Below, piece after piece: positions 15,239 to 38,069 of a stretch of DNA of 64,000 nucleotides. A program made the translations under genes and the position numbers. Each line of letters opens with the position of its first letter. The first letter of the stretch is position 1. The DNA is from Planomonospora sp. ID67723. Its GTDB lineage: Bacteria > Actinomycetota > Actinomycetes > Streptosporangiales > Streptosporangiaceae. Where the stretch lies: the NCBI RefSeq assembly GCF_015711605.1, contig NZ_JABTEZ010000004.1:186001-250000 (forward strand), written 5' to 3'. The notes under the pieces were generated by a model. That model saw only the letters and a program-made list of their open reading frames with translations. It was not told the DNA's origin and did not search any database.

Positions 15239-15526
15239 GCCGGTTCCTCACGCCGGATCTTCCATTCCGTGCGGTCCCGCCCGCCGTGATCCGGTAGGAC
15301 CACGCCATCGGCGTCAAGGTCTCCGTCGGCGTCGTCCACAAGACCCTCGCAGCCGCCAAAAGACTCATAAGCCGATCCGACGACCACCCGGATCCGAACG
15401 GCCAGTGACGCTAAGCCGGGCCCGCCGGACTCCTTATCGTCACTGGCCGTTCGGTTGCTGCTCAAACCCCGACACCCCCAGATGTGTGCCCGATATGCCG
15501 GGTTTCTGGGGTGCGTTAAGCGGGCA
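15239..15526. other. Intergenic region with a long hairpin
   Basis: No gene is firmly supported. A minus-strand open frame ending at 15220 overlaps the start of the next gene and includes the acidic stretch DDADGDLDADGVVLPDHGGR. It could be the tail of a lost upstream gene. The hairpin is listed separately. Confidence 0.35.
15394..15454. repeat. 17-bp perfect inverted repeat
   Basis: CCGAACGGCCAGTGACG (15394-15410) and CGTCACTGGCCGTTCGG (15438-15454) are exact complements around a 27-nt loop. It may be a bidirectional terminator between flanking genes or the fused ends of a lost element. Confidence 0.75.
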
Positions 15527-26062: not shown

Positions 26063-28477
26063 TTACGGGCCGGGCGAAGGGTAGGGCGGGGCCAGGCTCC
26101 ACACCCGCACCGTGCCGAGGTCGTTGCCGGAGACCGCCACGGGGCGGCCGTCCAACTGCGCCACCGCCACCGCATACACCGCCCCGGCATCCTCATCGTC
26201 GATGGTGAAGGGTTTGCCGATCGGCTTTCCGGTGGCCAGGTCCCACACCCGTACCGCACCGTCGTTGTCGCTGTGGCTGTCGTCGTCGCCGCCGGAGACC
26301 ACCACCGGGCGGCCGCCCAGCTGTGCCGCCGCCACCGCTCTGACCCCCCGCTTGTGGCCGGTGAAGGGTTTGCCGATCGGCTTTCCGGTGGCCAGGTCCC
26401 GCACCCCCACCGTAGCGTCGCGTTGGACGTCGGCGTAGTAGTCGTCGCCGCCGGAGATCACCACCGGGCGGCCGTCCAACTGCGCCGCCGCCACCGCCCA
26501 GACAGAGTCCTCATGGCCGGCGAAGGGGTCCCTGATCGCCTCTCCGGTGGCGAGGTCCCACACCCGCACCGTGCCGAGGTCGTTGCCGGAGATCGCCACG
26601 GGGCGGCCGTCCGACTGCGCCACCGCCACCGCATACACCGCCCCGGCATCTCCATCGTCGATGGCGAGGGGCTTGCCGATCGGCTTTCGGGTGGCCAGGT
26701 CCCACACCCGCATCGTACGGTCCTCACTACCGGAGACCACCACCGGACGGCCGTCCAACTGCGTCAGCGCCACGGCCCAGACTGCGTTCTTGTGGCCGGT
26801 GAAGGGTTTGCCGACCGGCTTTCGGGTGGCCAGATCCCACACCCGCACCGTGTCATCGCGGCCGCCGGAGATTACCACCGGGCGCCCGTCCAACTGCGCC
26901 ACCGCCACCGCCCGGACTCCATCGATGTGGCCGGTGAAGGGTTTGCCGACCGGCTTTCCGGTGGCCAGATCCCACACCCACACCGCACCGTCGTCGTTGC
27001 GGCTGTCGTCGTCGCCGCCGGAGACCACCACCGGGCGGCCGTCCAACTGCGCCACCGCCACCGCCCTGACCGCGCCCTCGTGGCCGGTGAAGGGTTCCCC
27101 GATCGGGGCGCCGAAGGGGCCGACCACCGCGGTGGAAGCCGGTGACGTAGTGGGCGCGGACGATGGGGTGCGGTTCTCTCCGGTGAGCGGATTTCGCAGC
27201 CACACAAGGATGGCAATCGCGACGGACACAGCGGCTGCGAGCGCGGCCAGCCTCAGGCGCCGAGTGGTACGGCGGCTTGGGGGATCAGCGGGTGCCGACG
27301 GTGGCATCGGAGGGTGATCTGATCTCTCCCGGGCGGGGGTGGTCGTGATGGCGTGAGCGCTGGTGCGAGAGACATCGTGCGGTGACGCGTCCGCCGTCGG
27401 CGCCGGATGCTGCCTCGGCGCCCGGCCGGCCTCTCCGGTGCCGGGATCGGCCTCAGGCATGACAGGCCGGGGCATGAACGACAGCACGGCCGGTGGCGCT
27501 GGTGGCGCATCGGTTGGGGCCGCTTGGGGGCGCGCCTGCCCCGCAGGGGGATCACCTTTCCCCGCGTGGTCTCTGGGCGAGGCCGCGACCAGGACATCAG
27601 GCGATGAGCGGCTTTCGGTCGGCTGCGCCGTATCGGCGGCGGGCCGGTTGCGGCCTCGGCCGGGAAGGGCCCGGTCATGGGTGAAGGCGGCCAGCAGGTC
27701 GGGGACGGCAGGTCGTTCGGCGGGGTCTTTGGCCAGGCACGCGGTCAGCAGCGGGTTGTGCCGGTCGGGGACGCCGGACAGGTCCGGCTCGCGGGTCACG
27801 ATGGCACCGATCACCGCTGCGGTGCTGGGGCCGGGGAAGGCCAGGTGCCCGGTGGCCGCGTACACCATGGCGGCTGCCCAGCTGAACACGTCCGAGGCTG
27901 TGCCGGCCGAGTGACCATGGAGTTGTTCGGGTGCCAGATAGGCCGGGGTGCCCACCGGCCCGGATCGGGTGGTGGTCTGCTCCAGCAGGCGGGCGATACC
28001 GAAGTCGATGACCACCGGCCCCTCCGGGCCCATGATCACATTGCTGGGCTTGAAGTCGCGGTGCACGATGCCGGCGCGGTGGATCGCCTCCAGTGCGGTC
28101 AGCGTGGTGATGGCCAGCCGCTCCAGACCGCCTTCAGCGCGAGGTCCGTCCTCGACGACCAGAGCGTGCAGCGATGGACCGGGGATGTACTCACTGACCA
28201 GGTAAGGGCGGTCGTCGTCGGTGATGCCCATGTCCAGGATGCGTGCGGTGCAAAACACCGCCACCTGACGGGCCAGGTCCGCCTCGCGCAGGAATCGTTC
28301 CCGGCTTGCGGGGTCGGCCGCCATCCGGGCATGCAGCACCTTGACGGCCACCTTCCGCCCCGCGGGTGCTTGGGCGAGGTAGACCGTGCCTTGACCGCCT
28401 TCGCCCAGCACTGCGCTCAGCCGGTAGGGGCCGACCTGCTCGGGGTCGCGTGCGGCCAGGGGGCCAGGGTCGGGCAC
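26063..28477 (-). CDS. Membrane Ser/Thr protein kinase with extracellular WD40 propeller
   Basis: This encodes 804 residues. The N-terminal Hanks kinase (about 15-275) has VLGEGGQGTVYLAQ, VAVKVL with the invariant Lys, HRDFKPSNVIMG catalytic loop, VIDFGIA (DFG) and GTPAYLAPEQ. A Pro/Ser/Thr-rich linker (about 280-410) precedes one membrane helix (LRLAALAAAVSVAIAILVWL). About 370 extracytoplasmic residues then form seven WD40-like repeats of the type GHxxAVRAVAVAQLDGRPVV..VWDLATGKPVGKPF. Such kinases are thought to sense an external ligand through the propeller. The highly repetitive DNA makes this gene prone to recombination, and an orphan piece of a relative lies at 54030. Confidence 0.93.
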   Translation of the reverse strand: MPDPGPLAARDPEQVGPYRLSAVLGEGGQGTVYLAQAPAGRKVAVKVLHARMAADPASRERFLREADLARQVAVFCTARILDMGITDDDRPYLVSEYIPGPSLHALVVEDGPRAEGGLERLAITTLTALEAIHRAGIVHRDFKPSNVIMGPEGPVVIDFGIARLLEQTTTRSGPVGTPAYLAPEQLHGHSAGTASDVFSWAAAMVYAATGHLAFPGPSTAAVIGAIVTREPDLSGVPDRHNPLLTACLAKDPAERPAVPDLLAAFTHDRALPGRGRNRPAADTAQPTESRSSPDVLVAASPRDHAGKGDPPAGQARPQAAPTDAPPAPPAVLSFMPRPVMPEADPGTGEAGRAPRQHPAPTADASPHDVSRTSAHAITTTPARERSDHPPMPPSAPADPPSRRTTRRLRLAALAAAVSVAIAILVWLRNPLTGENRTPSSAPTTSPASTAVVGPFGAPIGEPFTGHEGAVRAVAVAQLDGRPVVVSGGDDDSRNDDGAVWVWDLATGKPVGKPFTGHIDGVRAVAVAQLDGRPVVISGGRDDTVRVWDLATRKPVGKPFTGHKNAVWAVALTQLDGRPVVVSGSEDRTMRVWDLATRKPIGKPLAIDDGDAGAVYAVAVAQSDGRPVAISGNDLGTVRVWDLATGEAIRDPFAGHEDSVWAVAAAQLDGRPVVISGGDDYYADVQRDATVGVRDLATGKPIGKPFTGHKRGVRAVAAAQLGGRPVVVSGGDDDSHSDNDGAVRVWDLATGKPIGKPFTIDDEDAGAVYAVAVAQLDGRPVAVSGNDLGTVRVWSLAPPYPSPGP
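26100..27110 (-). repeat. Tandem WD40-coding repeats
   Basis: About seven units of roughly 130-150 bp. Each contains a conserved stretch coding QLDGRPVVVSG and one coding VWDLATGKPIGKPF, with high nucleotide identity between units. This indicates recent expansion or homogenisation. Confidence 0.85.
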
Positions 28478-29014: not shown

Positions 29015-29677
29015 TCAGCCCGAGCACTGCTGAGGGAGCAGGGCATCCGCGGCGGCCCAGGCGCGGCAGAGCCCGAATTCGGCCAAGCCGCGGATCAAGT
29101 CGCGGAACGTCTCGTCGGTGGCACCGGCTGACCGGGCCAGCTCCGCATGCAGCCGCAGCGATGGGCCCAGCGTCTGGTAGATGACGTCCACGGTCAGGCA
29201 GGCGATCGCCCGCTCGCGGATGCTGAGATGCGGGCGGGCCCACCGCTGGGCCAGTTGGTCCTCGGTGAAGGCGGCGAGTCCGGGGTCCACTTCCTCCAGG
29301 TCATGGACGGCACGGATCAGGGGCCCGGCCAGCGGCACCGGCTTGATCGGGTCGGTGTCCTGGGCGGCGGGCAGGCCGAGTTCGGTCAGCCGCTGGAAGG
29401 CGGTGACGAGGATGGGGTAGCCGACGTAGGGGGCCAAGTGACGGTAGAGCTCCCTGATCGATTCAGCGTCCACGCCGTTGCCGAGGGCCATCTGCACGTG
29501 CATGGCCAGGGGCACGTCCAGGTGCGGGTGGCACAGGTCGGCGGTCAGGCAGATGAAAGCCTTCTCACGCATGGTCAGGTGGGTCAGGCCCCACAGATTG
29601 TGGCCCGCGCCGACGGCGAGCTGGGCGAAGACGGGGTCGAGGGCGGTGAGGGCATCGGCTCCGGCGAGCTGGGTCAT
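29015..29677 (-). CDS. Carboxymuconolactone decarboxylase-like protein, two-domain
   Basis: This encodes 220 residues from ATG 29677 (MTQLAGADALTALDPVFAQL). Two copies of the CMD/AhpD-like helical fold are visible: first LTMREKAFICLTADLCHPHL..HVQMALGNGVDAESIRELYRH, then LSIRERAIACLTVDVIYQTL..HAELARSAGATDETFRDLIRG. The AhpD CxxC redox pair is absent; ICL and ACL give single cysteines, so peroxidase activity is unlikely and a decarboxylase/isomerase-like or structural role is more likely. It is the last gene of the 32.8-29.0 kb run, 13 bases after the SDR. Confidence 0.82.
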   Translation of the reverse strand: MTQLAGADALTALDPVFAQLAVGAGHNLWGLTHLTMREKAFICLTADLCHPHLDVPLAMHVQMALGNGVDAESIRELYRHLAPYVGYPILVTAFQRLTELGLPAAQDTDPIKPVPLAGPLIRAVHDLEEVDPGLAAFTEDQLAQRWARPHLSIRERAIACLTVDVIYQTLGPSLRLHAELARSAGATDETFRDLIRGLAEFGLCRAWAAADALLPQQCSG

Positions 29678-29690
29678 CGCGGGGCTCCGT

Positions 29691-30509
29691 TCAGGACAGG
29701 CCGAGCGCACGCAGGCGCAGGCGGTCGAGGGTGTATTGGGGGACGATGCGGCCGAGAGTGCTCATCAGCCGCGACTTCTTGCCGACCGGGTAGCGCGAGC
29801 GGGGCTTGCGCGCGGTCAGGGCGTGCAGGACGGCGCGTGCGACCACATCGGGGCTGGAGCCGGAGCGTTCCTCCCTGAGCCCGCTGGTGACCATGGTCTT
29901 GTACGCGGTGCCGTACAGGCGGCGGCCTTCGGGGCCGAGGGAGGCCAGGCGGGGTTCGACCTCGTCTTCGAGCTTGTCGACGGCGTCGGTGTGGATGGAG
30001 CCGGGTTCGATGAGGACGGCCGCCACGCCGTACGGCATGAGCTCCATGCGCAGGGCGTCGTTGAGGGAGCGGATGGCGTGCTTGGAGGAGCAGAGCGGGC
30101 CGCCGAAGGGAAGCGTGATCCAGCTGCCCACCGAGCCGACGGTGACGACGCGCCCGCGCGAGGCGCGCAGCTTCGGCAGCATGGCCTGGGTGACGGCCAC
30201 CTGGCCGAAGACGTTGACCTCGTACTGCCGGCGCAGCGCGTCGAGGGGGACGAACTCCAGGGGGCCGGTGACGCCGATCCCGGCGTTGTTGACCAGGGCA
30301 TCCAGCCGGCCCAGACGCTCGGCGGCTTCGGCGATCTGGCTCGGATCCGTGACATCCAGCTTGATCGGGGTGACGGTCGGGCCGAGCGCGTCGCCGTCGG
30401 CATCCTTGCGGACGCCGGCGTGGACGGTGAAGCCCTCGCGGGCGAGCAGCAGCGCTGTGGCGCGGCCGATTCCGGTTGAGGCGCCGGTGACGAGCACTGT
30501 CTTCGACAT
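29691..30509 (-). CDS. Short-chain dehydrogenase/reductase with altered active site
   Basis: This encodes 272 residues from ATG 30509, with GGAGGA just upstream. The cofactor motif VTGASTGIGRATALLLAREG, the NNAGIGVTG motif and VVTVGSVGSW catalytic-Ser strand are normal. The catalytic YxxxK position instead reads LCSSK (Leu about 139, Lys about 143), so the general-acid Tyr is missing. The C-terminus is long and basic (RYPVGKKSRLMSTLGRIVPQ). It sits in an operon with a CMD-like protein, a TrmO-like protein and a hydrolase. Either another residue supplies the acid, or the protein has a non-redox role. Leu variants at this position may be a subfamily trait. Confidence 0.85.
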   Translation of the reverse strand: MSKTVLVTGASTGIGRATALLLAREGFTVHAGVRKDADGDALGPTVTPIKLDVTDPSQIAEAAERLGRLDALVNNAGIGVTGPLEFVPLDALRRQYEVNVFGQVAVTQAMLPKLRASRGRVVTVGSVGSWITLPFGGPLCSSKHAIRSLNDALRMELMPYGVAAVLIEPGSIHTDAVDKLEDEVEPRLASLGPEGRRLYGTAYKTMVTSGLREERSGSSPDVVARAVLHALTARKPRSRYPVGKKSRLMSTLGRIVPQYTLDRLRLRALGLS

Positions 30510-30524
30510 GAGGGTTCCTCCAGG

Positions 30525-30989
30525 TCAGTAGTAAGAGCGCATGAGCTCGGTCGCCCACTCCGGTTGCACCGTCTCGCCCTGCGGTCCGAACTCGGCCATG
30601 TAGGGCTTGACGTCCAGGACGGGACTGCTGTCGATGGCGTCGAGGCCGCGGACGTGGATGTCCAGACCGTCGACGGCGAGCAGCCGGCAGCGGGAGACGC
30701 CCAGCAGGTTCGGGCGGTTCCTGCCTCGCTGGGCGAAGATGCCGACCTTGGGCCAGTCCGGGTTTCCTCGGGGGTGGCGGGCGGAGGTGTTGATCGAGGC
30801 GGGCTCAACAAGGTGGAACTGGAAGACCACCTCCAGGTGCGAGAAGGCGTCCAGACCGGCGAGGGATTCCGGCCCGAAACGGGTTCCGTCGAGGCGGATC
30901 ACCGCCTGTTCGGCGCTCCAGTCGTCGTCGAGCGCCTCGACGCGCCCGCCGGCGACTGTCCCGACAGGTTCCAATGCGATGGTCTGCAT
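30525..30989 (-). CDS. TrmO-family (YaeB-like) methyltransferase
   Basis: This encodes 154 residues from ATG 30989 (MQTIALEPVGTVAGGRVEAL), preceded by AGAGG. The motifs LAGLDAFSHLEVVFQFHLVE, ARHPRGNPDWPKVGIFAQRG and RNRPNLLGVSRCRLLAVDG are those of the beta-barrel SAM enzyme that N6-methylates t6A37 of tRNA-Thr (TrmO/TsaA). The position in an accessory operon with redox and hydrolase genes is unusual for a housekeeping tRNA enzyme, so it may act on another substrate. An open frame extends upstream, but the residues before Met are not conserved-looking. Confidence 0.85.
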   Translation of the reverse strand: MQTIALEPVGTVAGGRVEALDDDWSAEQAVIRLDGTRFGPESLAGLDAFSHLEVVFQFHLVEPASINTSARHPRGNPDWPKVGIFAQRGRNRPNLLGVSRCRLLAVDGLDIHVRGLDAIDSSPVLDVKPYMAEFGPQGETVQPEWATELMRSYY

Positions 30990-31050
30990 GGCGTTCCTCT
31001 CATGATCGGACTGCTGATCGCGACCGTACGGGCCGGTGATTCCGGCCGAA

Positions 31051-32094
31051 TCAGTCATGGCTGCTGAAGTCGTGCGGGGCCCCCGCCGGCTGGTTAGGTA
31101 GGGGCTGAGCACCGAAGAAAGCCTGAAGGTGGCGGTTGACCGGGTCCGGGCAGTCCAGTTGGGGAGCGTGGCCACAGCCGTCGAGGATCACGAGCTGCTC
31201 GTTCGGGAGCAGCTCGGCGAAACGGTGGGCGCGCTCGACGGGCTGGATGGTGTCCTGCTTGCCCCACAACACCAGGGTCGGGGTCTTCGTGGCAGGAAGG
31301 GCGGACTCGGTCTGCGCCCAGTCCAGGCGGCGTTCGAGCAGGTACGTGGCTCGGATGTTGTCATGGAAGGTCATCGGCGCCCACCACTCGTCGAGCAGTC
31401 GCTCGGTGACGCGGCCCTTGTTGACCATCATGCCCTCAGCCAGGCTGCGGACGGTGGACTTGCCGGTGGACAGCTTGACGGCCAGCTCGCCGACGACGGG
31501 AATCTTCAGGGACTCCCACATGAGGGTGCCCGGCAGGTCCAGTCCGGTGGCGTCGAGCAAGGCGAGCTTGGTGACGCGATCGGGGTGGCGCTGGGCGAAG
31601 GCCAGGGCCCAGCCGCCACTCCAGGAGTTGCCCGCCAGAGCGGCTTGCCGTATTCCGAGGCTGTCCATGAACGCGCTGACGGCAGTGACCATGGCATCGA
31701 GGTCGAAGGCGAAGCCGGATTCGTTGAGTTGTGTGTAGCCCTGGCCGGGAAGGTCGACTACGTAGACAGTGTGGTCGCGGGCAAGCACGTCGAGCTGGTC
31801 CTTCCAGCCGATGACGGAGGTGCCGCCGGGAGAGAGCAGGATCACGGGCGTGCCGGATCCGGCCTGGACGTAGTGGAAGCGGGCGATCGGGGTGTCGGTG
31901 TAGCGGGAGCCGACCTGGGCCAAGTACGGCGAGCGGAAGGCGCGGCCGTCTTCGGCGGGCTGCCAGCCGTAAGCGCCGAACAGCATCACGGCCACCAGCA
32001 GCGCCATCGCTGCCGCGACCCAGCGGGGCCAGCGCCGCTTGCGCACCGGTCGGGCGACGGTGGTCTGAGGAGTGTTGTCGGTAAGGGGAACCAT
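31051..32094 (-). CDS. Membrane-anchored alpha/beta hydrolase
   Basis: This encodes 347 residues. The N-terminus is basic and then hydrophobic (KRRWPRWVAAAMALLVAVML, FGAYGW), giving a signal anchor that places the catalytic domain outside. The hydrolase core has the oxyanion-region LLSPGGTSVIGW, nucleophile elbow GNSWSGG, acid in VLWGKQDTI and His in LDGCGHAPQLD. AAGGA lies upstream of ATG 32094. It follows the HXXEE protein by 88 bases and precedes the TrmO-like gene by 61. It probably hydrolyses an ester, lactone or epoxide at the cell surface; the substrate is unknown. Confidence 0.87.
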   Translation of the reverse strand: MVPLTDNTPQTTVARPVRKRRWPRWVAAAMALLVAVMLFGAYGWQPAEDGRAFRSPYLAQVGSRYTDTPIARFHYVQAGSGTPVILLSPGGTSVIGWKDQLDVLARDHTVYVVDLPGQGYTQLNESGFAFDLDAMVTAVSAFMDSLGIRQAALAGNSWSGGWALAFAQRHPDRVTKLALLDATGLDLPGTLMWESLKIPVVGELAVKLSTGKSTVRSLAEGMMVNKGRVTERLLDEWWAPMTFHDNIRATYLLERRLDWAQTESALPATKTPTLVLWGKQDTIQPVERAHRFAELLPNEQLVILDGCGHAPQLDCPDPVNRHLQAFFGAQPLPNQPAGAPHDFSSHD

Positions 32095-32182
32095 GGTGAT
32101 CCTTCGGCCTGGTCGGAGAAGCGTTCATGCGTCTAGACGGGCGGGCGCCGGACACCGTGACGGCCAAGGCGAGTGATCTGGC

Positions 32183-32779
32183 TCACACGGCGACTGGGAA
32201 GCGCTCCGCCTCCTCAGCCTTGAGAAGGCGGTTCTCCTTGATGAGGAAGTAGATCAGCAACCCGCTCATGACGAAGTGGCCGCCGGCGGTGTACAACCCG
32301 GGGAAGTAGCCGCCCTTGATGATCGGGAAGACGAAATGGGCGATCCCGTTGAGCAGCCCCGCGCCCAGGGCGTACCACCACAGGAAGAAGTTGGCCACAC
32401 GGATGCGGTACAGCGCGCCGGCACCGGCAAAGAAGTAGAGCGCACCGAAACCGAAGACGAATACGAGCAGGAACTCCTTCTCCGGCCAGTCACGCGGTGA
32501 ATCGAACAGCTCGACGATCTCGTGCGGGAAGCCGCCGGTGTACTCCTCGGCCATGTGGATGAGCTGGAAACCCACCGCGCACAGGTAGACGGCGATCACC
32601 TTCCGTGATTTCACCGGGCGGGTGTAGCTGAAGGTCATCCAGCCGCTCCAGCCCAGTACGCTGGCCACCACGAGGACCATGGCTCCCTGGATGGGGAGGG
32701 TGAGTAGTGCCCAGGCGCAGAAGGCGACGGCCAGAATCGCCATGACGGCCGCCGAATAGGGCTCAGGTCGTTTGATCAT
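32183..32779 (-). CDS. HXXEE-domain membrane protein
   Basis: This encodes 198 residues with six hydrophobic helices. The diagnostic segment LIHMAEEYTGGFP (His-x-x-Glu-Glu) sits at the start of the third helix, and a second conserved His follows in GIAHFVFPIIKGGYFPG. Paired His/Glu residues in the membrane suggest metal binding or hydrolysis, but the family has no proven function. An AGGG precedes ATG 32779. It is the first gene of the minus-strand run to 29.0 kb and is divergent from 32900, with a long imperfect dyad in between. Confidence 0.8.
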   Translation of the reverse strand: MIKRPEPYSAAVMAILAVAFCAWALLTLPIQGAMVLVVASVLGWSGWMTFSYTRPVKSRKVIAVYLCAVGFQLIHMAEEYTGGFPHEIVELFDSPRDWPEKEFLLVFVFGFGALYFFAGAGALYRIRVANFFLWWYALGAGLLNGIAHFVFPIIKGGYFPGLYTAGGHFVMSGLLIYFLIKENRLLKAEEAERFPVAV

Positions 32780-32810
32780 GGCTGAACCCTAGGAAGAGTG
32801 CGATAGCGGT

Positions 32811-32867
32811 CGCCTCTGTCATGTGACTGATGGACGCCCGGGGCACATCAGTCATCTGACGGAGGCG
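32811..32867. promoter_or_regulatory. Long imperfect inverted repeat in divergent promoter
   Basis: Arms of 22 bp match at 19 positions around a 13-nt spacer, with a perfect core TGACTGATG (32824-32832) and CATCAGTCA (32846-32854). It lies between HXXEE and the gene at 32900 and is a strong operator candidate. Confidence 0.65.
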
Positions 32868-32899
32868 ATCCCCCGGCGTCACTGTCTAGCGTCAGCGCC

Positions 32900-33616
32900 A
32901 TGAAACTGATCAATGACCACCTGGCCGTCAAGGCCCGCCTGCTGCCCCCGACCGGCGACGGTTTTCTCATGCTGGCCGGCGAGGTCGGCACCTGGCGCGG
33001 TTACTTCGCCTCCGCCCCCGTCCGGCTCGCCGCCCACCTCAAGGCCCTGGCGGCCGGCATCGAGGCGCGCGAGACGAACGTGTTCCGCGCCGTCCTGCGC
33101 ACGCCCGGAGAGGGCGACGAGCTGCTGAACGCCAGGGGCATCCAGCCGGCTCGCTATGACGTCGTCGTGCTGATCCGCACCGCGTCCGTGGAGGACGCTC
33201 TGGCGCTGCGCGACAGCCCCGCCTACAAGGAACTCGCCGAGGCGCTGCGCGCGGTCGCCCGCCGTACCCACCAGATCGTCGCAGGCAACGCCGGACGGCT
33301 CGGCGACGTCGACCACAGCCAGGACCACTGCTACCTGTTCAACTACTTCTACGCCGACGACCGCGAGACCCTGTTGAAGGTGTGGGAGTACACGGCCGGG
33401 TGGTTCCAGGCCAAGACCGCGCTGCCGAACTCGGCGCTGATGCGACCGCTGGAGGGAGAGCCCGCCGACTACGGACTCGTCAACCACGCCAGCTGGCCGA
33501 ACTGGCGGACGTTCCTGCCTAGTCTGATCTTTCGGCCCACCTTCCGCAGCTTCGTACTGGCCAACTTCAAGGCCAACGGCATCGCCGCGCAGCCGATCAT
33601 CTATCGCCGGGTCTGA
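32900..33616 (+). CDS. Unrecognised protein, probably two dimeric alpha-beta barrel-like halves
   Basis: This encodes 238 residues, no signal peptide. The first half has a ferredoxin-like pattern YDVVVLIRTASVEDALALRD then SPAYKELAEALRAVARRTHQ. The second repeats the pattern with CYLFNYFYADDRETLLKVWE then YTAGWFQAKTALPNSALMRP and a C-terminal LANFKANGIAAQPIIYRRV. Such ABM/EthD-like folds bind haem, quinones or ring-cleavage substrates. The assignment is an inference from the secondary-structure pattern. It is divergent from the HXXEE operon and its stop lies one base from the end of the convergent LAL regulator. Confidence 0.65.
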   Translation: MKLINDHLAVKARLLPPTGDGFLMLAGEVGTWRGYFASAPVRLAAHLKALAAGIEARETNVFRAVLRTPGEGDELLNARGIQPARYDVVVLIRTASVEDALALRDSPAYKELAEALRAVARRTHQIVAGNAGRLGDVDHSQDHCYLFNYFYADDRETLLKVWEYTAGWFQAKTALPNSALMRPLEGEPADYGLVNHASWPNWRTFLPSLIFRPTFRSFVLANFKANGIAAQPIIYRRV

Positions 33617-33617
33617 C

Positions 33618-36362
33618 CTACGCCACCCCCAGCCTGGCCAGCTCGGCGCGGGAGGAGACGCCCAGCTTGGGGAAGGCCTTGTACAGGTGTGAGGCGACGG
33701 TGCGCGGGCTGAGGAACAGCTGGGCGCCGATCTCGCGGTTCGACGCTCCGGTGACGGCCAACCGGACGACCTGGAGCTCCTGTGCCGTCAGAGCAGCCAG
33801 CGGACCGCCGAAGCGGGTCCGGTCAGGCAGGGAGGCGCCGGTGGCCCGCAACTCGGCCGCCGCCCGGGCGGACCAGGGAGCCGCGTCGAGCCGATCGAAG
33901 ACCTCGACGGCGGCCTCGAGTTGGGCGCGTGCCTCGACGCGCCGTTGCTGGCGGCGTAGCCACTCCCCGTAGACCAGGCGGGTGCGCGCCTCGTCGAAGG
34001 GCTGCCCGCCCTCGGCATGGAGGACGAGCGCCTGCTCGAAGAGTCTCTCGGCCTCGTGCTCAGCGGCCAGCAGCGCCTGAGCCCGATGCAGTACGGCAAG
34101 CGGCCTGGCCTGGCCGGTGGCGCGCGCCCACTCGGCATACGGTCGCAGCGCCTCCTTCGCACATCGGGGATTCCCCGCCCGTGTGGCGGCCTCGACGTAG
34201 TCGGGCCAGGCGTAGCGCCAGAGAAAGGCATGGCGAGTCGGGCCGACCGCCGCCCGGTCCACCCGCTCGAGCACCGCCTCGTAGCGTCCCGCTCCGAGGT
34301 CGAGCATCAGCCGCGCGTATTCCGCCCAGAAGGCTCCCGGCATCCACCTGCGGTGCTCGGCGTCGCGGATCGCCTGCTCCGCCATCTCGCCGCACTCCTC
34401 CTGTGCACCGGCGACCGCCGACAGCCAGGCGTGCAAGCCCGCCAGATAGCTGCTCCACTGCGCCTGGCCCACGTCGGCGGCCAGGGCCAGGCCCGCGGCC
34501 ACCGTGGCCCGCGCTGACCGATGGCGGCCGCTGACGAGCTGGGCGATGGTGAGGGCGGTCATGGCCTGGGGCATGCGTCCCAGCCGTCCCTCAGCGCGGC
34601 AGTCCTCCACGAGCATGGCCGCGCCGTCCAGCATGCCGTCGTGATCGGCGCGGACGACGTCCTGGTAGGCCAGGACGAAACGCACCTCGAACGGCACGCG
34701 TTCGGCCCGGTCCGGCGGCTGGTAGGTGAGCGTGGTCGCTGTGTCGCCTTCGAGGAGCAGGCGCAGGGTGTGGTTGAGCGTGCGCACCGTGGCGGCCAGC
34801 CCGTCGCCGTCCGGGCACAGCTCCTCGGTACGGCGAGCCAGTGCTACCTGATCGGGGTGGGGAGCGCCGGCCCAGGTGTAGAAGCCGGCCAGGCTGAGCA
34901 GCGACAACTTGGCGGGCAGATCCGTCACCGCCTCGGCTCCCTGATGCAGCAGGCGCACGCCCTCCAACGGGCGGCCCGCCTCGATCTCCAGCTTCGCCTT
35001 CACCTGGGTCAACTCCGCCAGCACCGATCCAGGGAGCGCCGCCTCCTTCGTCATCATGGATCCGGGGAGTGCCGCCTCCTCGAGCAGGTGTGACGCCTTG
35101 CTGACCAGCTCACGCGCCCGCTCCCACAGGCCCGCCTCGGCTGCGGCCCCGGCGGCGACTGTCCACCGTTGTACGGCCGCGACGGGATCGGCTGACAGCT
35201 CGGCCGCCCGCGCGTAGGCCGCCGACACCGCCGTCTGTCCTCCGCGCTGCCGGGCGCGCAGGGCCAGGCACTCCATCATCCGGGCCACCTCCTCGTCGGG
35301 CTGCAGAGTGACGGCGGCCAGGTGCCAGGCCCGCCGATCGCCGTCGACAGCTTCGGCCAGGGCCCGGTGCGCCGCCATCCTGGCGCCGATGTCGCACGAC
35401 AGCAGCACGGCTGTACGCACGAGCGGGTGGCGGAAGACGACACCCTCCGAACCCACCCTGGCCAGGCCCGTCCGCTCGACCTCCGCGAAGTCGGTCAGCG
35501 AGGCGCCGAGCAGGCCGATCGCCCGTGCGAACACATCCAGCTCGGCCCGGTCGTCGAGAGCGGCCACCAGCAGGCAGGAGCGAGTGGCGCGGGGCATCGC
35601 TGCGATCCGGTCCCGAAAGCCGCACAGCACCCGATCAGTCACCGGCTGCGCCGTACCGAGGGAGAACGACAGCGGGACGAGCGCGCCCCTGCGCTGCTCG
35701 GCGGTGAGCATCCGGGCCAGCTCGACCAGGGCAAGGGGATTGCCCCGGGCCTCGGCGACAAGCTGCTCCCGGACGGCCGGCGGCAGATCCGCCGCCTGCT
35801 CGGCGAGCAGGCGGTGGGCGGTCCCGGCGTCGAGTTCGCCCAGCCACAGCTCGGGCAGTCCCCTCGAAGGGAAGAGCCCATCGCCCTCCCTCGCGGCGAA
35901 CAGCGTGGCGACGGGCTCGCCATGCAGGCGGCGGGCGGCGAACAGCAGCGCGTCGGCCGACTCGCCGTCCAGCCACTGGGCGTCATCGACCAGGCAGACC
36001 AGCGGGCCCGCCGCCGACAGCTCCACGAGCAGGCTGAGCGTCGCCAGGCCGACGAGGAAACGGTCGCCCCGGGCCGGGCCGCCAAGGCCGAGCGCACTGC
36101 GTAACGCCTCTGCCTGCTGCGGCGGCAGCGCTCTCACGTGGTCGAGGACCGGGCGGAGCAGCAGGTGCAACGCGGCGAACGGCAGGTCGGTCTCGGACTC
36201 GACGCCGTTGACTCGCAACACGCGTGCCTGTGCTGTCGCGGCGGTGTAGTCCAGAAGGGCCGACTTGCCGATGCCCGCCTCGCCACGCACGATCAGAGCG
36301 CCGGAGCGCGCCTGGAGCAGCTCGTCGATCGCGGCCTGTTCCGCCTGGCGCCCGTACAACAT
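33618..36362 (-). CDS. LAL-type LuxR regulator (large ATP-binding)
   Basis: This encodes 914 residues. The N-terminal AAA-like module has Walker A IVRGEAGIGKSALLDYTAAT and Walker B LVCLVDDAQWLD. A long helical, TPR-like central region follows, then the LuxR helix-turn-helix at the C-terminus (LTAQELQVVRLAVTGASNRE then IGAQLFLSPRTVASHLYKAF). Proteins of this architecture (MalT/LAL) are pathway activators in actinomycete specialised metabolism. There is a local tandem duplication EAALPGSMMTKEAALPGSVL near 35030-35085. It follows the hydrolase at 36409 by 46 bases and may be co-transcribed with it. Confidence 0.9.
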   Translation of the reverse strand: MLYGRQAEQAAIDELLQARSGALIVRGEAGIGKSALLDYTAATAQARVLRVNGVESETDLPFAALHLLLRPVLDHVRALPPQQAEALRSALGLGGPARGDRFLVGLATLSLLVELSAAGPLVCLVDDAQWLDGESADALLFAARRLHGEPVATLFAAREGDGLFPSRGLPELWLGELDAGTAHRLLAEQAADLPPAVREQLVAEARGNPLALVELARMLTAEQRRGALVPLSFSLGTAQPVTDRVLCGFRDRIAAMPRATRSCLLVAALDDRAELDVFARAIGLLGASLTDFAEVERTGLARVGSEGVVFRHPLVRTAVLLSCDIGARMAAHRALAEAVDGDRRAWHLAAVTLQPDEEVARMMECLALRARQRGGQTAVSAAYARAAELSADPVAAVQRWTVAAGAAAEAGLWERARELVSKASHLLEEAALPGSMMTKEAALPGSVLAELTQVKAKLEIEAGRPLEGVRLLHQGAEAVTDLPAKLSLLSLAGFYTWAGAPHPDQVALARRTEELCPDGDGLAATVRTLNHTLRLLLEGDTATTLTYQPPDRAERVPFEVRFVLAYQDVVRADHDGMLDGAAMLVEDCRAEGRLGRMPQAMTALTIAQLVSGRHRSARATVAAGLALAADVGQAQWSSYLAGLHAWLSAVAGAQEECGEMAEQAIRDAEHRRWMPGAFWAEYARLMLDLGAGRYEAVLERVDRAAVGPTRHAFLWRYAWPDYVEAATRAGNPRCAKEALRPYAEWARATGQARPLAVLHRAQALLAAEHEAERLFEQALVLHAEGGQPFDEARTRLVYGEWLRRQQRRVEARAQLEAAVEVFDRLDAAPWSARAAAELRATGASLPDRTRFGGPLAALTAQELQVVRLAVTGASNREIGAQLFLSPRTVASHLYKAFPKLGVSSRAELARLGVA

Positions 36363-36408: not shown

Positions 36409-37296
36409 TCACACCGATGCGGTAGCCCGGTGGAAGAAGGCGATCTGGTCGGCGACTACCCGATCACGGAAGACGGGATCGGTGTAGAAGGTGAAGTGCG
36501 TGCCGGGGTAGACCCGCAGCTCGCCTCGAGGCGCACGGTCGGCGAGCACCCGGGTGGTCTCCAGCGGCGTCTCCCGGTCCTCGGCGGCGACGCAGACCAG
36601 CAGCGGGCAGGCCAACCGGGCGGCGGAGCCGGCGGGGCGATAGCGCATCATCTGCAGCAGGCCTCTGGGGGCGACGCTGTTGCGCCACAGCGTCTGTCCG
36701 CCGCCGGTGAGGGTCTGGATGTGCTGGTCGGCTTCGGGAGTGGCGGTCACGGCGAGCTCTCCAGGCCGTCCCACCATGGGGATGTAATGCGGGCGCATGC
36801 CCACCTTGCCGCGGAGAGAGTCCCAGACGATCGCGCCCAGCAGCCGCAGCGTCTCGCCGGTCGAGCGGTCCTCCACCTTTTTGGGGAAGCCGTTGAACGG
36901 GATCTGCGCCACCACCGCGGTGATCCGGGGATCGTCCGCGGCCACGGTGATGGCGTGCGCGCCGCCCAGCGAGTTGCCCCACAACATCACCCTGTCGGGG
37001 TCGATCCGCTCGTGCGCGCGGGCGAAGGCCACCGCGGCACGGACATCGACGAGCTGGCCGTCGATGTCGGGGACCTGGCGCGGCTCCCCGCCGCTCTCTC
37101 CGAAGCCGCGGTAGTCGAAGACCAGCGCCGCCAGGCCCGCGGCGACGAAACGCTCGGCATAGTCGGAGAGCCGGTCCATCGTCCCGCTGAAGCCGTGACA
37201 GAGCACCACGCACGGCACCGGTCCGTGGTCGGCGGGCAGGTAGAGGTAGCCGGCGCAGCGGACGCCGTCAGCGGTGAAGGACACCTTGGTACGCAT
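36409..37296 (-). CDS. Cytoplasmic alpha/beta hydrolase
   Basis: This encodes 295 residues if it starts at ATG 37296 (MRTKVSFTADGVRCAGYLYL). Codons before this, up to 37359, overlap the promoter of the divergent regulator and are unlikely to be translated. The core has CVVLCHGFSGTMDRLSDYAE, nucleophile elbow LWGNSLGGAHA, acid in CVAAEDRETP and His in YPGTHFTFY. The pattern resembles the dienelactone hydrolase/X-Pro dipeptidyl-peptidase-like group. It is divergent from the TetR-type regulator at 37359, which probably represses it, and upstream of the LAL regulator. Confidence 0.85.
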   Translation of the reverse strand: MRTKVSFTADGVRCAGYLYLPADHGPVPCVVLCHGFSGTMDRLSDYAERFVAAGLAALVFDYRGFGESGGEPRQVPDIDGQLVDVRAAVAFARAHERIDPDRVMLWGNSLGGAHAITVAADDPRITAVVAQIPFNGFPKKVEDRSTGETLRLLGAIVWDSLRGKVGMRPHYIPMVGRPGELAVTATPEADQHIQTLTGGGQTLWRNSVAPRGLLQMMRYRPAGSAARLACPLLVCVAAEDRETPLETTRVLADRAPRGELRVYPGTHFTFYTDPVFRDRVVADQIAFFHRATASV

Positions 37297-37323
37297 GCAG
37301 ATCATCCCCGCAGCAATAGACTG

Positions 37324-37367
37324 ACTGCCGGTAAGTACTATATCGAAGGAACTGACCATTGGTAAGT
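37324..37367. promoter_or_regulatory. Operator candidates overlapping the regulator start codon
   Basis: ACTGACCATTGGTAAGT (37351-37367) is a palindrome with 7 of 8 pairs matched and covers the TTG start of the TetR gene. A related ACTGCCGGTAAGT lies at 37324-37336. Binding here would repress both divergent genes. Confidence 0.55.
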
Positions 37368-38069
37368 GAAACCTCCGAGCGGATCCTGGAGGCGGCGCGC
37401 GCCCTGTTCGCCGCCCGCGGCTACCGCGCCACCTCCATGCAGGCCGTCGCCGACGAGGTGGGCATCACCAAGGCCGCCCTCTACTACCACTTCGAGTCCA
37501 AGGAGGAGATCCTCCACCAGCTCACGATGCCGCTGCTGGACGAGCTGGAGGGGACGCTGGCGCGGGCCGAGTCGTGCGAGAGCGCCGAGGAGGTGCGCTG
37601 GCGGGCGATAGAGGGCTACGTCGATGTGCACCTGCGCCACCGCCAGACCCTCACCATGCTCGTCAAGGACATGACGCTGCTGGTGCAGACCCCCGCCGGC
37701 GACCGCTTCCGCGCCGCGATCGGCCTGGCCAACGAGCTGGTGGCCGGTCCCGGCGGCGGGCTCGAGCAGCGGGTGCGCGCCTGCCAGGTGGTCGCCGGGC
37801 TGGCCGATCCCGTGGTGCTGTTCCGCGACGAGCCCGTCGACCGGTTGCGGAGCCTGATCCTCGACGGCGCCAGAGCTCTGCTGGGCGAACCGGCCGCGCC
37901 CCGGCCTCGCGGGCGCGCCCGGGGACGGAGTGGCGGGCGACGCGCCGCCCTCACCGAGGAGCAGATCGCCCAGGCGAGATCCCTCTACGGCGAGGGCCGC
38001 AGCGTCGAGGAGATAGCCGCCGCCTTCGAGATCTCCAGGGCGACTGCGTATCGCTATCTCAAAAACTAA
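37359..38069 (+). CDS. TetR-family regulator with an added C-terminal resolvase-type HTH
   Basis: This encodes 236 residues from TTG 37359 (read as MVSETSERILEAARALFAAR), with GAAGGA eight bases upstream. The N-terminal TetR HTH reads TSMQAVADEVGITKAALYYH; a ligand/dimer domain runs to about residue 170. Then comes a basic Arg/Gly/Pro linker (PRPRGRARGRSGGRRA) and a second helix-turn-helix, LTEEQIAQARSLYGEGRSVE followed by EIAAAFEISRATAYRYLKN, of the Hin/resolvase HTH_7 kind. Most TetR proteins lack this second domain. It is divergent from the alpha/beta hydrolase and probably autoregulated. Confidence 0.88.
   Translation: MVSETSERILEAARALFAARGYRATSMQAVADEVGITKAALYYHFESKEEILHQLTMPLLDELEGTLARAESCESAEEVRWRAIEGYVDVHLRHRQTLTMLVKDMTLLVQTPAGDRFRAAIGLANELVAGPGGGLEQRVRACQVVAGLADPVVLFRDEPVDRLRSLILDGARALLGEPAAPRPRGRARGRSGGRRAALTEEQIAQARSLYGEGRSVEEIAAAFEISRATAYRYLKN

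Follow-up and report, generated by a model that had tools for sequence, protein, structure and literature searches.

The window analysed here is a stretch of 64,000 nucleotides of Planomonospora sp. ID67723 (contig NZ_JABTEZ010000004.1, positions 186,001 to 250,000). Near its middle lies a series of five minus-strand genes that starts with a membrane protein of the HXXEE family and faces the gene of a tandem barrel protein across a long inverted repeat, with the gene of a LAL regulator converging on the barrel gene. A first-pass annotation had described the five genes as one accessory operon with gaps of 88, 61, 15 and 13 bases. These gaps are correct with a start of the TrmO-like gene at 30989; the gene caller prefers an in-frame start at 31058, which would overlap the hydrolase gene. 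The family names given to the CMD, SDR, TrmO_N, alpha/beta hydrolase, HXXEE and LAL proteins all agree with Pfam matches, the LAL gene is present with AAA_16 and GerE domains, and the inverted repeat (32811-32867) is real, with two 25-bp arms that agree at 20 of 25 positions. The interval then given, 29015-33616, is too short: it omits the LAL gene and a pair of genes for a second alpha/beta hydrolase and a TetR regulator, both of which recur in relatives (Table 1).

Table 1. Features of the locus and their positions in the window (aa, amino acids; nt, nucleotides; HTH, helix-turn-helix; SAM, S-adenosylmethionine).
Feature	Position	Strand	Description
CMD	29015..29677	-	Two-repeat carboxymuconolactone-decarboxylase-like protein, 220 aa; PF02627
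SDR	29691..30509	-	SDR-fold protein, 272 aa; PF00106; Leu139 at the catalytic-tyrosine position
TrmO-like	30525..30989	-	TrmO_N-only SAM-methyltransferase-like protein, 154 aa; PF01980
ABH	31051..32094	-	HsaD/BphD-related alpha/beta hydrolase with N-terminal hydrophobic anchor; PF00561
HXXEE	32183..32779	-	Membrane protein, 198 aa; PF13787
-10-like element TAGGGT	32786..32791	-	6 nt before the HXXEE ATG
Operator arm 1	32811..32835	+	Centre 44 bp upstream of the HXXEE ATG
Operator arm 2	32843..32867	-	Centre 45 bp upstream of the barrel-protein ATG
-10-like element TAGCGT	32887..32892	+	7 nt before the barrel-protein ATG
Barrel protein (DABB)	32900..33616	+	Tandem dimeric alpha-beta-barrel protein, oxygenase-like, 238 aa; structure model
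LAL	33618..36362	-	Regulator (AAA_16 ... LuxR HTH), 914 aa; candidate activator, predicted operator binder
ABH2	36409..37359	-	Second alpha/beta hydrolase, adjoins TetR; Hydrolase_4 82.8 bits
TetR	37359..38069	+	Regulator with C-terminal resolvase-type HTH; TetR_N 80.8, HTH_7 49.8 bits

Recurrence of the gene set

The locus in the window is one copy of a modular, LAL-associated accessory locus that recurs in other genomes. When an alignment of HXXEE proteins was run against 84,980 species genomes, 24 loci were obtained; 22 of these, at 82-94% identity, were found in Nonomuraea, Micromonospora, Nocardia, Actinoplanes, Catellatospora and Glycomyces. The comparison sample comprised 27 loci from 21 genomes: the named loci (stretches of 11-21 kb), four loci of three further genomes (20-52 kb) and the window, of which 25 kb were compared. 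Three loci were set aside from the counts, L095 (a 3.8-kb contig with no operator), L096 (a 34% relative only) and G086 (degraded HXXEE gene and no operator).

The HXXEE gene is present in 27 of 27 loci by selection. A LAL gene was found in 23 loci, CMD in 22, SDR in 20, and the barrel gene and ABH in 18 each, the latter as 10 orthologues and 8 paralogues at 41-44%. ABH2 was found in 14 loci, TetR in 11 and the TrmO-like gene in 10, and 15 loci have at least one of two paired proteins with weak similarity to YtkA. Extra genes of the relatives encode FAD monooxygenases with a FAD_binding_3 domain (6 loci) and MFS proteins (5 loci). In 18 of the 20 loci with an SDR gene, this gene adjoins CMD on the same strand at a distance of 11-37 bases. 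The gene order is HXXEE-TrmO-SDR-CMD in L073, L077 and L083 and HXXEE-SDR-CMD in L074, L075, L080 and L087; in L092 and L093 the SDR-CMD pair is placed beyond the LAL gene. The locus is a reshuffling set in which HXXEE, the constant member by selection, is usually accompanied by LAL and the SDR-CMD pair, with ABH and TrmO variable. The idea of one accessory operon is right in that the genes belong together, as they recur in other genera, but not in that they form a fixed five-gene operon, since the set reshuffles around HXXEE. The first-pass annotation had named neighbourhood conservation as the check and its lack beyond this strain as a refutation; the gene set recurs across actinomycete genera.

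Among 200 genomes of the order, which include the own one, 7 have HXXEE at E 1e-10 (five close and full-length) and 26 the barrel protein (four close and full-length). The TrmO-like protein was found in 74 at any degree of similarity, and its close clade (at least 75%) in six besides the own genome. A class-wide profile search gave HXXEE in 3 of 296 genomes, again with the own genome included. In the sister genus 13 of 54 genomes have HXXEE, in as many as five copies; a contamination of 9% is flagged for the genome with five, and G183 and G491 each have two full copies on one contig. Because of this patchy presence and the multiple copies in the sister genus the locus is regarded as accessory. 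Horizontal transfer of HXXEE between families, suggested by the identities of 82-94%, received no support from the HXXEE tree, in which a single clade (96/91) unites the four Micromonosporaceae sequences and 17 of 25 inner branches are left unresolved.

The upstream neighbour of the gene set in the window (26063-28477) encodes a protein in which WD40 repeats come after a protein kinase domain (PF00069, 132.3 bits), and a WD40 protein also flanks the second G183 locus (L069 93-2255).

A paired operator before two divergent genes

The upstream regions of the HXXEE genes have a dyad in common, the arm of which is CGCCTCYGTCANNTGACTGATGTG, and each arm contains the short palindrome GTCANNTGAC. The dyad is a conserved operator with a fixed place before two start codons. 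Only one other inverted repeat with an agreement of at least 20/25 and a spacer of 3-15 bases was found in the 64 kb (15392-15470). A weight matrix was made from 38 arms, picked by a core pattern anywhere in 190 upstream bases and with position left free; it includes the window sequence, so that the window is no independent test. Scores of 20.5-40.6 bits were obtained for 37 of the 38 arms, against a background of one site of at least 11 bits in 213,012 bases of other loci.

In all 25 loci with a recognised HXXEE start the arm centre is found 44 (4 loci), 45 (19 loci) or 46 (2 loci) bases before the ATG, and both arms are present in 21 of the 25. Locus L083 has both arms and a start region that is out of frame by the start pattern used. 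Among the 11 barrel genes whose start was recognised, 10 have an arm 44 or 45 bases before the ATG, the exception being L075. Eight more barrel genes have no recognised start; among these the arm is found at 44 bases in L078 and at other distances from the called start in L079 and L090, and no arm is nearby in L082 and L084. Several loci in which the HXXEE and barrel genes lie apart have an arm of its own for each (L073, L092, G146, G183).

Three full loci were held out from the matrix, L142 and L143 (both G491) and L145 (G476). In all three an arm stands 45 bases ahead of each of the two genes, the barrel arm of L145 being weaker (17.2 bits), and L143 repeats the shared dyad of the window. 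From the held-out set L146 was dropped as a duplicate of L081, and L144 is an HXXEE fragment with an arm only. Locus L141 of Nonomuraea gerenzanensis is apparently the same locus as L145; its replicon, NZ_LT559118.1, is an 11.85-Mb sequence filed as a plasmid in PLSDB, with 10 annotated features.

A stricter pattern with up to three mismatches gave only the two arms of the window in the own 8.3-Mb genome, and the reversed control gave 0 sites. With a looser pattern sites were found in 31 of 200 genomes, mostly as single two-mismatch sites, and with the reversed control in six genomes. Genome G129 (L129-L132) contains several variant operator-like arms (CTGTCACGTGACTGGTG), one of them near a LAL gene and a CMD-like and SDR-like set.

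In the window a TANNNT-like -10 element lies 6-7 bases before either ATG; relatives have one at a similar position, for the barrel gene in most of them, so both divergent transcripts are probably leaderless. The arm overlaps the -35 region, which is the position of a class II activator, and this geometry suggests activation from the arm. A terminator scan found 2 terminators with 2.0 expected, and a sigma-70 scan 0 with 0.2 expected.

The LAL protein of the window is, by its AAA_16 (54.2/32.6 bits) and GerE (55.8/23.5 bits) matches and its 914 amino acids, a member of the LAL group, and it is likely to be the activator that binds the operator. Of the 23 loci with a LAL gene, 22 have it no more than 5.6 kb from HXXEE and one has it at 19.7 kb, and 21 of the 25 LAL sequences taken from these loci share the HTH sequence SPRTVASHLY. 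In one genus, distant relatives of HXXEE (25-29%) are also divergent from LAL genes, directly in L071 and one gene off in L139. Like LAL-regulated clusters of actinomycetes, the locus places metabolic genes next to a regulator of 900 aa that combines AAA_16 with a LuxR HTH at the C-terminus; it differs from them in the paired long operator between divergent promoters and in the genes that reshuffle around a membrane protein.

The encoded proteins

The HXXEE protein scores above the PF13787 cut-off (28.6 versus 25 bits). The positions H75, E78, E79, N144 and H148 are invariant in 18 HXXEE sequences, and the H-x-x-E-E motif is thus conserved. A structure model built on 17 sequences has six long helices and a middling mean pLDDT (predicted local distance difference test) of 72.4. 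The family includes MucF of the Streptococcus mutans muc cluster, described in the accessible parts of two papers (PMC9112991, PMC10161427) as an annotated HXXEE-domain protein and an acylase that converts reutericyclin to mutanocyclin; according to the same parts, homologues in strains that lack a muc cluster detoxify reutericyclin. By this precedent the protein of the window may be an acylase. MucF and its stand-alone homologues are likewise membrane proteins of the HXXEE family, found, as far as the accessible text tells, with TetR regulators and a DHA2-family MFS transporter, and the homologues of non-producers detoxify the antibiotic. The present locus differs in that control is likely by LAL instead of TetR, in a defined operator and in an extra enzyme set. 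It also has no nonribosomal peptide synthetase or polyketide synthase gene in the scanned part of the window, with polyketide synthase genes near 2 of 27 relatives. In the open-access literature, as far as its accessible text goes, the only experiments found on HXXEE proteins concern the muc acylases and their homologues, and none of the papers that name HXXEE was on actinomycetes by title.

The first-pass description of the divergent gene product as a two-half barrel is backed by an AlphaFold model and by fold matches. The model has two ferredoxin-like halves in one chain with a mean pLDDT of 76.8, the five models spanning 47-77. The best match was an anthrone oxidase-like protein (5f9p; Foldseek E 1.0e-6; Z 14.4, root-mean-square deviation 3.3, 194 aligned residues), followed by PenE (9kdp; Z 13.0) and by putative monooxygenases and sulfur oxygenase reductases with Z about 12. 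By sequence, the DUF1330 score was 20.1 bits with a cut-off of 23, and a search of the PDB with the barrel alignment gave no match with E below 0.2. As modelled, the protein folds like anthrone oxygenases, and its exact chemistry is not fixed by the fold matches. The AlpJ-family oxygenases, in which a monomer resembles the dimeric anthrone oxygenases, offer a precedent (PMC11181247, accessible part). The tandem dimeric alpha-beta barrel is common to these oxygenases and the protein of the window, which differs from them in a sequence identity of about 10% and in a gene outside a recognised aromatic polyketide cluster.

ABH (PF00561, 85.9 bits) had 6i8w (E 1e-23) as its best match in the PDB, with HsaD (7zjt) at E 1.8e-23, and fails the equivalog of the HsaD meta-cleavage-product hydrolase, NF045632 (108.4 versus 400 bits). 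CMD matches PF02627 with 61.2 bits (61 from a longer start; cut-off 23) and fails the equivalog of PcaC, the 4-carboxymuconolactone decarboxylase (TIGR02425, 41.2 versus 155.7 bits). The SDR protein (PF00106, 135.1 bits) has TGASTGIG and NNAG motifs, TGxxxGIG and NNAG being classical for the SDR family. It lacks YxxxK, as the alignment reads LCSSK where human 17-beta-HSD1 reads YCASK. Leucine replaces the catalytic tyrosine in 21 of 21 SDR sequences, window included, within a nearly invariant stretch; the protein is therefore under selection and yet no textbook SDR.

The TrmO-like protein matches PF01980 with 84.4 bits from the 154-aa start and 83.2 bits from the longer start, and fails the TrmO equivalog TIGR00104 from both (73.4 and 72.2 versus 93.25 bits). 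In common with TrmO/UPF0066 tRNA methyltransferases it has the TrmO_N domain, with residues 38-135 aligned to 1xqb. It differs from them in its length of only 154 aa, in the failed equivalog and in its presence in 10 of 27 loci, so that it is not a core member. A tRNA-modifying family member had been called odd in this setting. The domain is there, but the failed cut-off and the TrmO_N-only architecture mean that no tRNA role is indicated. The TrmO_N-only subfamily has another recurrent setting in several genomes of the order, with TetR and exporter-like genes: distant proteins (53-58%) adjoin, by eye, TetR and ABC-exporter-like genes in L043, L044, L046, L048, L049 and L051. A second TrmO_N match in the own genome (L002 946-1644, contig C4 near 711.7 kb) covers the last 50 domain residues only, inside a longer frame, near a reading frame that by eye is resolvase-like; similar short matches occur in several other genomes.

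The TetR protein carries, in an unusual pairing, an extra C-terminal resolvase-type HTH (HTH_7, 49.8 bits).

Possible functions of the locus

Our leading interpretation, with a probability of about 0.38, is that the locus inactivates or catabolises an acylated, probably aromatic metabolite and is inducible and LAL-activated. Since HXXEE and the barrel oxygenase are most regularly under the operator, they are the likely core, and the rest would be exchangeable helpers. A ligand or metabolic signal would activate the local LAL regulator, which, we infer, binds both dyad arms overlapping the -35 regions and switches on two divergent leaderless transcripts together, that of the barrel oxygenase and that of the HXXEE operon (HXXEE-ABH-TrmO-like-SDR-CMD). 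HXXEE, in the membrane, would take an acyl group off the substrate, as MucF does on reutericyclin. The anchored hydrolase, the oxygenase and CMD may then oxidise, cleave or decarboxylate the core, and the methyltransferase-like protein may cap it. FAD monooxygenases and an MFS exporter would extend the same job in some relatives. The net effect would be that an acylated, probably aromatic natural product, from a neighbour or from the own cell, is inactivated or catabolised.

Several results weigh against this interpretation. The HXXEE protein clears PF13787 by just 3.6 bits, and its model gave no match to solved structures at E 0.001. The barrel also matches other families, with DyP and chlorite dismutase/HemQ-like proteins among the lower fold matches, and the SDR has lost its tyrosine. 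Five of the 27 loci come from one genome, that of N. basaltis. The Glycomyces locus L091 has kept HXXEE and LAL, and the arm is absent. Four of the 27 loci show no LAL gene; three of these are cut by contig ends, and L074 shows 10 kb free of LAL on one side. With the looser pattern one further site was found in the own genome, on contig C1. Of 36 operator-like places outside HXXEE loci 10 were read, and a full-length LAL paralogue was near three (L129, L133, L135), a short LuxR-HTH protein at one (L134) and no LAL at six.

This last result bears on which protein binds the operator. It could be the TetR protein or another regulator encoded elsewhere rather than LAL, which we consider unlikely. 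The palindrome GTCANNTGAC in each arm also suits a dimeric TetR, a TetR gene is present in 11 of 27 loci and adjoins the distant HXXEE relative L140, and six of the 10 outside places are those with no LAL nearby. However, a LAL gene accompanies HXXEE in 23 of 27 loci and in each of the three full loci held out, as compared with 11 of 27 and one of three for TetR (at least 55%), and in 10 of its 11 loci TetR adjoins ABH2.

For the function itself, a tailoring or biosynthetic module is nearly as likely as inactivation or catabolism. LAL would then be a pathway-specific activator, and the enzymes would build or decorate a small metabolite or signal on a scaffold made nearby or elsewhere. LAL regulators occur in secondary-metabolite clusters (PMC3282765, accessible part), and the anthrone-oxygenase-like fold and the methyltransferase-like and FAD monooxygenase genes fit such a role. 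Polyketide synthase genes near two of the 27 loci also favour it, and count against inactivation: L075 has a gene of 996 aa, 2.6 kb away and next to CMD, that clusters in the same family as the G049 gene, which encodes 1256 aa (KS-AT-DH-ACP) and lies 12.7 kb from HXXEE. On the other hand, the gene content is strongly reshuffled around HXXEE, several copies occur in one genome, and 25 of 27 loci have no comparable large gene (non-LAL, at least 600 aa) in the stretches read, where most large genes were judged without a Pfam run. That the TrmO-like gene marks a tRNA-modification or translation-stress locus is very improbable: the PF01980 score of 84.4 bits speaks for it, but the equivalog cut-off failed, the gene is absent from 17 of 27 loci, and relatives at 53-60% often stand beside TetR and exporter-like genes. 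Still less credible are chance neighbours in one strain that form no functional unit. The own-genus neighbour G007 has no HXXEE match, and only 7 of 200 genomes of the order have one, but the locus recurs in six named genera, five of which have the operator, and in the held-out loci, and this conservation already refutes the idea.

Searches of the open-access literature, to the extent of its accessible text, gave no description of the gene set as a unit, in keeping with the first-pass view of a candidate undescribed system, and no paper was found there on TrmO with actinomycetes and a gene cluster. A broader and rather doubtful extension of the inactivation reading is a family of inducible chemical-defence islands in actinomycetes, in which a genome would have several diverged copies, every one adapted to another acylated antibiotic. 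Such an island would combine a LAL sensor, a dedicated paired operator and a very conserved membrane acylase with interchangeable oxygenases, hydrolases and exporters.

The HXXEE family gains with this locus a regulated actinomycete context, with predictions for the operator and the activator and with a small gene set open to direct tests. Should the locus serve detoxification, a search guided by the conserved operator could lead to its inducers and to more enzymes of the resistance type in genera that produce antibiotics. Should it serve tailoring, it would point to a metabolite family so far unlinked to these genes.

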